From Halovivax limisalsi (GTDB lineage: Archaea > Halobacteriota > Halobacteria > Halobacteriales > Natrialbaceae): a DNA stretch of 64,000 bases. Below are positions 14,942-39,478 of the stretch, piece after piece. The notes under the pieces are model-generated. The model made no database searches. It had not been told where the DNA came from and saw only the letters and a program-made list of their open reading frames with translations. Numbering within the stretch: the first letter of the stretch is position 1; each line of letters opens with the position of its first letter. The stretch is taken from assembly GCF_023093535.1 (NCBI RefSeq), contig NZ_CP095757.1:1426001-1490000 (forward strand), given 5' to 3'. The translations under genes and the position numbers were made by a program.

Positions 14942-15282
14942 CGCGGTTCGGAGCGCCGAAGGCGCGAGAACCGAGAAAATGCGAGCGGGGAACGGAGTGA
15001 CCCGCGAGCAGCGAGGAACCGAGCGAAGCGAGAATCTCGGAGAGGCGAGCGGCGAAGCCGCGACCAGCGAGATTCGGAACGAGCGGAGCGAGCGAGAATC
15101 TCGGAGAGGCGAGCGGCGAAGCCGCGACCAGCGAGATTCGGAACGAGCGGAGCGAGCGAGAATCTCGGAGAGGCGAGCGGCGAAGCCGCGACCAGCGCGG
15201 TTCGGGGCCGAGAATCGTGATATCGCCTGCATAGGCCGGGCGTAGACGTAACCGAGCCGACGGTGTCGATGCGGCAGGCGCC
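14942..15282. repeat. Intergenic 64-bp tandem repeat array (about 2.6 copies)
   Basis: Between purNH and the sulfatase gene. Identical units start at 15031, 15095 and 15159, a spacing of exactly 64 bp; the third copy is cut after about 39 bp. Each unit contains a small hairpin (GCGGC-GAA-GCCGC) and ends in a GAACGAGCGGAGCGAGC run. The flank at 14942-15030 holds a related hairpin (GCGCC-GAA-GGCGC) and degenerate pieces of the unit. No open frame in it looks like a protein. The array may act as the terminator of purNH or as a recombination target; that is inference. Confidence 0.8.
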
Positions 15283-35467: not shown

Positions 35468-35585
35468 ACCGAGTGTGCGCGGGTCCCGGTGAAAACGATT
35501 TCGGAGCGACCCTCGCCGTGCCAGCTATTATAATCACAACCAATATTACAATTGATATCAACACGTCCTCGATCCTCATTAGCAT
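35445..35585 (-). CDS. Possible 46-residue hydrophobic peptide overlapping the pyrG start
   Basis: A frame from ATG 35585 to TGA 35445 encodes [20 protein letters not shown] followed by a polar tail. It has one strong membrane helix and overlaps the first 23 bases of pyrG in another frame. It could be a small membrane peptide, an upstream ORF affecting pyrG translation, or chance in AT-rich sequence. Confidence 0.2.
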
Positions 35586-35692
35586 TTCTATGCTATCTTC
35601 CAAAAACTATACTAGATTGATCAGATATATAAAATACCAGGCAATCCTCCTGAGAACTATTGAATAACTAGAGTTCAGAAAAACCATTCAAT

Positions 35693-35857
35693 TCAACACC
35701 ATTCTATATAAATTAATAAATTAAATAATGTTACGTAAAATCCTACCGATAACACGCAAATAATGGCGATTAATGAGCTCTGATACGTCCATAACAGAAT
35801 CAGACATACAGATACAACCAGAAATAGGCCATAGGTCAGCATTGATCTTCTATTCAT
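35693..35857 (-). CDS. 54-residue two-helix membrane protein in AT-rich island
   Basis: It encodes MNRRSMLTYG, then two hydrophobic helices, about 10-23 (GLFLVVSVCLILLW) and 29-50 (LIAIICVLSVGFYVTLFNLLIY), ending EWC. The positive-inside rule would put the N terminus in the cytoplasm. Unlike the other proteins here it has almost no acidic residues, and its codons are AT-rich, so it looks foreign. It is divergent from the 56-residue gene. Small membrane toxins, holins and immunity proteins have this shape, but nothing specific identifies it. Confidence 0.45.
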   Translation of the reverse strand: MNRRSMLTYGLFLVVSVCLILLWTYQSSLIAIICVLSVGFYVTLFNLLIYIEWC

Positions 35858-35904
35858 ATTGCAAATTATCTTTTTTACTTCTTATATTTTATGTTCATTA
35901 ATAT
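35858..35904. promoter_or_regulatory. Divergent AT-rich promoter region of the island genes
   Basis: 47 bases between the two start codons, almost all A/T, containing TATA-like CTTATATTTTATG and AATATAT. Both small genes could be transcribed from here as leaderless mRNAs. Confidence 0.4.
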
Positions 35905-36075
35905 ATGAAATATTTCCTCGTAGATCCGGTAGATATTCTAGGTAATTTTAACCAATTGATGCACGAACCCTCTTCTCCCGATGGTATTCTCATGGGTTGG
36001 ACCGGCTATGAATGGCAAATTCCTGATATGGATGAGCAAGTATCTTCATATGAAGGTGTGTACGTCCAACTTTAA
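35905..36075 (+). CDS. 56-residue soluble protein in AT-rich island
   Basis: It encodes MKYFLVDPVDILGNFNQL, then a Trp-containing segment (GILMGWTGYEWQIPDM) and ends SSYEGVYVQL. The sequence is well balanced, acidic (Asp, Glu) and clearly protein-like, with codons much richer in A/T than the rest of the window. No membrane segment and no known motif. It may be an intact tiny gene or the tail of a truncated one. It is divergent from the 54-residue membrane protein, an arrangement that would suit a two-component small system (inference). Confidence 0.45.
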   Translation: MKYFLVDPVDILGNFNQLMHEPSSPDGILMGWTGYEWQIPDMDEQVSSYEGVYVQL

Positions 36076-37614: not shown

Positions 37615-39147
37615 TCAGACGGGCGCCTCGATCGACGGGGCGCTGTCGTCTTCGGTCGCATTGTCCTCGCCGTCCGTGCCGTCGTCGGTCGCACCGTCGC
37701 CACCGTCTTCGGTGGCGTTGTCCGCACCGTCGCCCGTCGTCGTACCGGTCTCGTTGTCGCCTTCGAACTCCTGTTCGAGCTGGTCCACGTCGACCGTGAC
37801 GGTTTCGGCCGTTCCGTCCTCGATCGTCATCGAGGCGGCCGACGCCATCTCGATCGTCTCGCCAGCTTCGGCGGTGTCGGCCGCGCCGTCGTCGGTCGCG
37901 TTGTCCGCGCCGGCACCGTCGGTCGCGTTGTCGTCACCATCCATGCTGTCGGTCGCGTTGTCGGTCGCGTTGTCGGTCGCGGCGCCGTCTTCGCCGTCGG
38001 TGGCGTCGTCGGTCGCACCGTCGCCACCGTCTTCGGTGGCGTTGTCCGCACCGTCCATGCCGTCCGTTGCATTGCCGTCCATGCCGTCAGCGCCGTCGTC
38101 GGCGCTTCGATCCTCGAGCGAATTGATCGTCATCGCCTCGACGGTCGCTTCCTGGACGTCGAACTGCTCGATCGTGACCGACTCGAACTCCTGCGTCTCG
38201 CCGTCGGTGGCCGCGCCGGCACCGTCGGTCGCGTTGTCTTCGCCATCGGTGGCGTTGTCCATGCCGTCGGTCGCGTTGTCTTCGCCACCGGTGGCGTTGT
38301 CCATGCCGTCGGTCGCGTTGTCGGTCGCGGCGCCGTCCTCGCCGTCTTCGCCATCTCCGTCACCGCCGAAGATGCCGCCGAGCCAGTCGCCGATCTGATC
38401 GACGATACCGCCGTCCTCCTCTTCGACCGTGATATCGCCGAGCGTCAGGGTCTCGATGTTCATCTCCTCGATCGTCAGTTCGCTCCCGTCGAGCGCGACC
38501 ACGTTCTCGTCGATGACCATCTCGTCGCCGGCACCGTCGGTCGCGTTGTCCTCGCCGTCGGTGGCGTTGTCCGCGCCGTCGGTCGCAGCGCCGTCTTCAC
38601 CGTCGGTGGCATTGCCCGCACCGTCCATGCCGTCCGTGGCGTTGTCGGCGCCGTCCGTGCCGGCGCCCATCTCGCTCACCTGAAGCTCCTCGATCGAGAC
38701 GTTCTCCAGTTCGAGCGACTCGATGTGGATGTTCGAGAACGTCACGTCCTCGATCGGCTCGTCCGAGGCGTTCTGTGTGCCGGCACCGTCGGTCGCGTTG
38801 TCCGCGCCGCCGGCCGTGGCGTCGTCTTCGCCGTCGGCCGTAGCGTTGTCGTCACCGTCCGTGCCGTCGGTCGCCGCCCCGTCTTGGGTCTGGTTGACGC
38901 CGAGTTCGTCTTCGAGTGCCGCTCTGTCCTGGGCCTCGAGCGTCTCGACGTTGAGTTCCTCGATCGTCACGTTCTCGACCGTGACGTTGTCCAGTTGTAG
39001 TTCGCCCACCTGTACGTGTTGCAGCGTTGCGCTCGTCTCTCCGGTCGTCGTCCCGTCGGCCATGCTCGCCGTGGCCACGCCGGGGCCGGCGAGTGCGACG
39101 CAGCACGCGACGAGGACGACACCGATCGCCTGTAGTCGTGAGTCCAT
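37615..39147 (-). CDS. Secreted acidic repeat protein packed with N-glycosylation sequons
   Basis: 510 residues. A Sec-type signal peptide (MDSRLQAIGVVLVACCVALA...) is followed by two alternating kinds of sequence. Five beta-rich segments, such as LQLDNVTVENVTIEELNVET and ELTIEEMNIETLTLGDITVE, have the regular short hydrophobic spacing of a beta-solenoid. Between them are long low-complexity stretches of Asp/Gly/Ala/Asn/Thr built on DNATDG-like units. I count about 19 Asn-Ala-Thr and about six other Asn-x-Ser/Thr sequons. No enzyme motif and no C-terminal anchor were seen. It is probably an exported, heavily N-glycosylated surface protein. The DNA is correspondingly repetitive, so strain-to-strain length variation is expected. 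The start at 39147 gives a good signal peptide; an ATG 51 bp upstream would not. Confidence 0.8.
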   Translation of the reverse strand: MDSRLQAIGVVLVACCVALAGPGVATASMADGTTTGETSATLQHVQVGELQLDNVTVENVTIEELNVETLEAQDRAALEDELGVNQTQDGAATDGTDGDDNATADGEDDATAGGADNATDGAGTQNASDEPIEDVTFSNIHIESLELENVSIEELQVSEMGAGTDGADNATDGMDGAGNATDGEDGAATDGADNATDGEDNATDGAGDEMVIDENVVALDGSELTIEEMNIETLTLGDITVEEEDGGIVDQIGDWLGGIFGGDGDGEDGEDGAATDNATDGMDNATGGEDNATDGMDNATDGEDNATDGAGAATDGETQEFESVTIEQFDVQEATVEAMTINSLEDRSADDGADGMDGNATDGMDGADNATEDGGDGATDDATDGEDGAATDNATDNATDSMDGDDNATDGAGADNATDDGAADTAEAGETIEMASAASMTIEDGTAETVTVDVDQLEQEFEGDNETGTTTGDGADNATEDGGDGATDDGTDGEDNATEDDSAPSIEAPV

Positions 39148-39478
39148 ACGGATCGCAGTACCGCCGCGTTCCGGGCTAAAACGAACAGACCGTTTCACGG
39201 TCTTCCGACCGAAACTGTCGATTCACGTCGCGAGGGTCGCGGGTAACCCCGCATTCACGGCGCGAGCAGCCGCCGGATGAATCGCGACTGGCAATCGGCG
39301 ATCAACGCCCGGTGTCGGCGGTCGACCGGCCGCCCGACGGACCGTTTCGAAGCGTAATGGGTCGTTCACCCGCGCCGCTATCGGCGGACCTGGGTCGTCA
39401 TCGATCGTCTCGCCCCCGACCGCCGGCGATCCTCGCCGGAACGCAACGTTTACCGACGCCGCCACGAAGACGTCCACG
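39148..39478. other. Divergent intergenic region, no gene seen
   Basis: 331 bp between the secreted repeat protein and tgtA. A TATA-like AACGTTTACC (about 39446) lies some 30 bp before the tgtA ATG. Nothing else recognised. Confidence 0.4.

Follow-up and report, generated by a model that had tools for sequence, protein, structure and literature searches.

The window analysed here is a 64,000-nucleotide stretch of the Halovivax limisalsi genome, and its minus strand carries at 37615-39147 a 510-residue open reading frame that begins with an ATG at 39147 and stops at 37617-37615 (Table 1). The gene is present in one copy in the 3.89-Mb single-contig genome and stands by itself: a NUDIX gene on one side converges with it, and tgtA on the other diverges. 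Synteny around it is patchy within Natrialbaceae members and absent in other families. An operon-based function was rejected, the gene being solitary and its neighbours convergent or divergent. Elsewhere in the window, an AT-rich island (35500-36000, 34% G+C amid about 65-70% G+C) lies between a CTP synthase gene and a PadR-like regulator gene, and three near-perfect 64-base tandem repeats (97% matches) occupy 15021-15205.

Table 1. Features of the five-block gene, in window positions
Feature	Position	Strand	Basis
Promoter box, GAAACGGTC-N4-CGTTTTA	39177..39196	-	Conserved across family
CDS, predicted secreted five-block protein (510 aa, 25 sequons)	37615..39147	-	Translation, orthologues
Predicted Sec-type signal peptide, residues 1-27, ends ATA/S	39067..39147	-	Read by eye; strongly conserved in orthologues
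Block s1, residues 39-73, ~7 pentads, consensus VQVET LELEN VTVEN ATIEE	38929..39033	-	Segment HMM, periodicity
Linker 1, residues 74-132, acidic, sequon-rich	38752..38928	-	Between s1 and s2
Block s2, residues 133-156, ~5 pentads	38680..38751	-	Segment HMM, periodicity
Linker 2, residues 157-208, NATDG repeats	38524..38679	-	Between s2 and s3
Block s3, residues 209-259, ~5 pentads and hydrophobic GIVDQIGDWLGGIF tail	38371..38523	-	Segment HMM, periodicity
Linker 3, residues 260-319, NATDG repeats	38191..38370	-	Between s3 and s4
Block s4, residues 320-346, ~5 pentads	38110..38190	-	Segment HMM, periodicity
Linker 4, residues 347-428	37864..38109	-	Between s4 and s5
Block s5, residues 429-453, ~5 pentads	37789..37863	-	Segment HMM, periodicity
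Acidic C-terminal tail, residues 454-510, ends PSIEAPV	37618..37788	-	Tails compared among orthologues

The protein contains 30 Asn, exactly 25 of which lie in N-x-S/T sequons (19 NAT, 2 NVT and one each of NVS, NAS, NQT and NET), about 5 sequons per 100 residues; the initial annotation had counted about 19 Asn-Ala-Thr and six other sites, and these counts are correct. Its proposals of a Sec signal and of a highly acidic protein were also borne out: residues 1-27 read by eye as a Sec-type signal that is conserved in orthologues, and the mature protein has a pI of 4.05, 29.6% Asp+Glu, only two Lys+Arg and no Cys. AglB, which it had named as the glycosylating enzyme, is represented in the genome by an archaeal AglB-type oligosaccharyltransferase gene (G000:C1:1869874-1872477). 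The protein thus has the properties of an AglB substrate, being predicted to be exported and carrying N-x-S/T (x not Pro) in a genome with AglB. All 22 linker Asn are in sequons (expected 3.1; at most 7 across 300 within-linker shuffles), an excess that is inflated by unit duplication, so the real test is the comparison across orthologues. At the C-terminus, which reads DDSAPSIEAPV, we found neither a PGF-CTERM tail nor a transmembrane segment, and no NCBIfam match; retention at the cell surface is therefore a guess. The tails of orthologues bear at most a short SIALLG-like end. Such a short hydrophobic end follows the acidic stretch in many family members and is possibly an assembly or sorting signal.

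The five segments that had been described as beta-solenoid-like are real, and are more exactly pentapeptide-like blocks with strict 5-residue periodicity. Lag-5 autocorrelation was 0.65-1.0 in all five, with none of 2000 shuffles as strong, and hydrophobic residues occupy pentad positions 1 and 3 in each block. The likeness to pentapeptide repeat proteins (Pentapeptide_3, Pentapeptide_4) lies in these tandem pentads with inward hydrophobics at positions 1 and 3. The differences are that position 1 is mostly Leu, Val or Ile and not Ala (consensus pentads mostly begin with L, V, I, F or M, Ala coming first in a minority only), that blocks of 4-7 pentads are broken by long acidic linkers, and that the protein is predicted to be secreted; nor did most pentads have a small residue (Ala) at position i-2. 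Matches to Pentapeptide_4/_3 were weak in the window protein (E 0.13, 12.8 bits) and at best E 0.00048 (20.6 bits) among relatives from other families; none, in the window protein or its relatives, reached the Pfam gathering scores (38 and 27 bits), and the family is therefore not filed under pentapeptide repeats. Pentapeptide repeat proteins form a right-handed quadrilateral beta-helix; AlphaFold models of the window protein and a Halobiforma orthologue, built on four-sequence alignments, had mean pLDDT of 38.9 and 37.8 with no strands modelled.

Close homologues of the whole protein were found in 101 of 125 Natrialbaceae genomes, in 26 of 29 genera, and an N-terminal profile search recovered weaker relatives in other haloarchaeal families. 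Segment HMMs placed the five blocks in identical order in 109 of 110 Natrialbaceae members. What is conserved is a signal, the five blocks with their order kept, four long linkers that are acidic and of low complexity, and a similarly acidic tail; linker sequence and length vary freely among orthologues. The initial annotation knew of no named family with this design, and indeed neither Pfam nor NCBIfam has a model that covers it; the libraries for viruses, plasmids and defence systems likewise gave no match. On the strength of these comparisons, this is an undescribed haloarchaeal family of predicted secreted proteins in which five pentapeptide-like blocks are joined by long polyanionic linkers. 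Among same-genus genomes, G029, G030 and G032 are without a full-length member, and all that G029 carries is a short frame of 144 residues with weak similarity (L149, G029:C13:60700-72800), perhaps a remnant. Distant relatives in other haloarchaeal families (L132-L144) reach about 830 residues and 89 sequons, the densest seen.

Family genes share an upstream promoter box, GTAACAGTC-N4-CGTTTTA, which stands at a fixed distance and is nearly invariant (loci L051-L131); its TTT[A/T] core lies 33 bases ahead of the ATG in 102 of 110 members. An untranslated frame had been named as an outcome that would refute the initial reading; the frame is real, as the five segments and this box are kept across the family. 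In eight genomes scanned, the box is almost exclusive to genes of this family, which suggests that a dedicated regulator may act on it. A shared regulon was rejected because the box is almost confined to the family's own genes, and it therefore points to no functional partner.

The number of sequons is far less constant than the blocks. Hyper-glycosylation had been proposed as the design of the protein, yet orthologues with the same five blocks span 0 to more than 50 sequons, and where the annotation had called for a comparison between strains, the nearest same-genus orthologue that we found has no linker sequons. On these counts, the family is not defined by its predicted glycosylation sites. 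Across 109 members, the fraction of linker Asn that belongs to a sequon has a bimodal distribution: 47 members fall at 0-0.14 (38 of them with exactly 0), five at 0.31-0.59 and 57 at 0.75-1.0. Splitting at 0.3 gave 62 sequon-rich and 47 sequon-poor members. In the rich class, 1362 of 1500 linker Asn (91%) are in sequons where shuffles predict 277, by way of 22 kinds of N-x-S/T triplet in different repeat units, versus 14 against an expected 28.9 in the poor class. With 22 triplet kinds behind it, this contrast cannot be explained by expansion of one repeat unit. Sequons in the window lineage are far above chance and, as judged from orthologues, evidently under selection.

The same shift is seen within the conserved blocks. 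At block columns where Ser or Thr nearly always stands at +2, Asn is present in 57/62 rich versus 10/47 poor members, and at the others in 61/62 versus 22/47, 42/62 versus 9/47, 45/62 versus 2/47 and 26/62 versus 0/47. Asp or Glu mostly takes the place of the lost sequon Asn, with the +2 Ser/Thr retained. Non-sequon Asn columns gave 55/62 versus 36/47 (p 0.12), 34/62 versus 37/47 and 22/62 versus 13/47; two such columns, s2 column 7 and s4 column 11, do differ, the poor class losing Asn. Because sequon columns change and most non-sequon Asn columns are similar, the sequon is the main target of change, and a general Asn-to-Asp trend adds to its loss.

On a tgtA tree, parsimony required 15 changes of state, at least eight of them forced by supported branches. 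Paralogues agree in state in all 32 genomes with two scored members, some copies lying tens of kilobases or more apart, which makes the state a property of the genome. Loss of AglB was rejected as an explanation for sequon-free members, since AglB was detected in 120 of the 125 genomes, rich and poor classes alike.

The sequon-free state apparently goes with haloalkaliphiles. State fits pH lifestyle in 27 of 27 labelled genomes on the tree, neutrophiles being rich and haloalkaliphiles poor. The labels were given after the classes were seen, which carries a risk of bias. Some genome names are tentative; a paper-based label with firm identity covers 4 alkaliphiles and 7 neutrophiles, and the other labels are general background. 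Poor members belong to Natrialba magadii, Natronobacterium gregoryi, Natronococcus occultus, Haloterrigena daqingensis, Natrarchaeobaculum species and Natronolimnobius baerhuensis; rich members to Haloterrigena turkmenica, Haloterrigena salifodinae, Halopiger species, Natrinema species and Halobiforma. Published descriptions supplied alkaliphilic or near-neutral labels (PMC3403918, PMC6631277, PMC8530250, PMC4149028), with Halopiger djelfamassiliensis growing optimally at pH 8 (PMC3910545). Five independent pairs are supported (seven on all branches) and all run in the same direction, with a sign test p of 0.0625, five pairs being too few to attain p 0.05. We found no earlier report of sequon loss in haloalkaliphiles in the open-access papers searched.

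Other surface proteins differ in the same direction. Archaellins carry 0.25 sequons per 100 residues in the alkaliphile set versus 1.52 in the neutrophile set (p 3e-6, indicative only, as homologues were treated as independent), and S-layer-like proteins, counted on full ORFs, 0.65 versus 1.43, about twofold (p 0.0025, indicative for the same reason). Alkaliphile archaellins also have fewer sequons than their own composition predicts. Among the archaellin loci L215-L244, those of haloalkaliphilic Natrialbaceae mostly have no N-x-S/T versus one to three predicted, and those of neutrophilic relatives often have two to six. Exceptions among archaellins are the alkaliphiles G037 and partly G045 and the neutrophiles G080, G081, G011 and G077. 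The same-genus genome G031 is sequon-free in the five-block family, and three of its archaellins have none either, as against 4 and 2 in the two archaellins of the window genome. Since archaellins and S-layer-like proteins also differ, the trait is wider than the five-block family, although by predicted sites the contrast is sharpest there. TIGR04216, used as an S-layer control, had only one true full-length match.

Like the window protein, haloarchaeal S-layer glycoproteins (halo_surf_glyco, PGF-CTERM) are acidic exported proteins whose N-x-S/T sequons are targets of AglB. The S-layer-like proteins of neutrophilic relatives have 0.6-2.0 sequons per 100 residues, as against about 5 here, and the window protein differs further in having no PGF-CTERM tail, transmembrane segment or sequence match to them. 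Halomucin, which we take to be much larger than the window protein, is comparable by description as an extracellular, glycosylated haloarchaeal protein. It is found in Haloquadratum walsbyi, where it is proposed to aid survival of desiccation (PMC10102575). In the Haloferax volcanii proteome, HVO_2160 has the largest number of confirmed N-glycosites, 19 (PMC8241124); likened again by description, it is an exported haloarchaeal protein rich in such sites, and differs from the window protein in being the largest of Hfx. volcanii.

Several processes could produce such a pattern. If linkers need only acidity and disorder, sequons might simply hitchhike on expanding NxT-bearing units, as the near-identical DNATDG repeats of the window linkers and the freedom of linker sequence and length would allow. 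We consider this low-complexity drift quite improbable: rich members keep 91% of linker Asn in sequons across 22 triplets, the shift recurs at non-repeat columns of conserved blocks, where it is the sequon Asn that changes, and the state is common to all paralogues of a genome, even distant copies. Sequon loss could instead be a by-product of general acidification of alkaliphile exported proteins, with Asn going to Asp and Thr/Ser to Asp/Glu. Linker Asp+Glu (0.605 poor versus 0.352 rich) and Ser+Thr (0.03 versus 0.19) move as this predicts, and the non-sequon columns s2 column 7 and s4 column 11 lose Asn too. We nevertheless think it unlikely, given that poor linkers are still Asn-rich (0.085 versus 0.105 per residue), that poor blocks keep non-sequon Asn (36/47) and lose sequon Asn (2/47, 0/47), and that alkaliphile archaellins fall under their composition-based expectation.

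The genome-wide reach of the pattern, in archaellins and S-layer-like proteins alike, together with the retention of AglB itself, would also suit some other lineage trait correlated with alkaliphily, such as divalent-cation supply, glycan-binding viruses or a different N-glycan; with archaellins breaking the rule in the several genomes named above, we regard this as somewhat unlikely. In the first case, AglB, acting outside the cell, may be short of the divalent metal that it needs, carbonate brines being poor in it. Least credible to us is that the linkers are calcium- or magnesium-binding spacers resembling thrombospondin type 3 repeats, with glycosylation secondary. Units of D-x-D/N-x-D-G style do occur in both classes (DNATDGEDNATDG; DNGVDDNDEN), but thrombospondin type 3 repeats follow DxDxDGxxDxxDxC with a conserved Cys, the mature window protein has no Cys and does not show this pattern, Pfam gave no match to such repeats, and unit spacing is not fixed among orthologues.

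On balance, we give a slight preference to a secreted polyanionic brush, charged by N-glycans at neutral pH and by Asp/Glu in alkaline brine. Short beta-helix coils of the pentapeptide type would arise by folding or stacking of the blocks, and would anchor the protein or assemble it at the surface of the cell or within a matrix. The disordered linkers would make a hydrated brush of negative charge. In neutrophiles, a group to which the window organism probably belongs, AglB would decorate both the linkers and the faces of the blocks with acidic N-glycans; lineages in alkaline brine would give up this coat and take their charge from Asp/Glu. Linker Asp+Glu falls linearly with rising sequon density (slope -2.5, r -0.91). 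A one-for-one swap implies a median of 2.7 negative groups per glycan (about 4 for the window protein), and some 2-3 would equalise the rich and poor forms of the brush; Haloferax N-glycans do bear several uronic acids (PMC8241124). Part of the slope is simple compositional displacement, and the charge swap is therefore put forward as a hypothesis. AglB needs a divalent metal, and divalent metals are scarce in carbonate brines, which may bear on why alkaliphiles would drop the sites. The enzyme works outside the cell (PMC2952790). A bolder proposal, which we hold to be quite possible if somewhat short of an even chance, is that the brush is a two-state charge device, its negative charge either supplied by N-glycans on saturated sequons or written into the chain as Asp/Glu: lineages would flip repeatedly as they move between neutral and alkaline brines, all paralogues at once and with AglB kept.

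Our analysis gives a name to a widespread exported family that lies outside the domain libraries searched. Why archaea N-glycosylate their surfaces is usually approached by single knockouts; here evolution has seemingly repeated the experiment in one protein, the five blocks, promoter and neighbours staying constant while the glycosylation sites are either all present or all absent, following habitat pH. Pairs such as Natrialba asiatica and N. magadii, or Halobiforma haloterrestris and Natronobacterium gregoryi, would be natural material for asking what the sugars do. Sequon state may also serve as a sequence marker for the lifestyle of uncultured genomes and, if the two-state device is true, the sequon density of a secreted proteome would be a readout of external pH.
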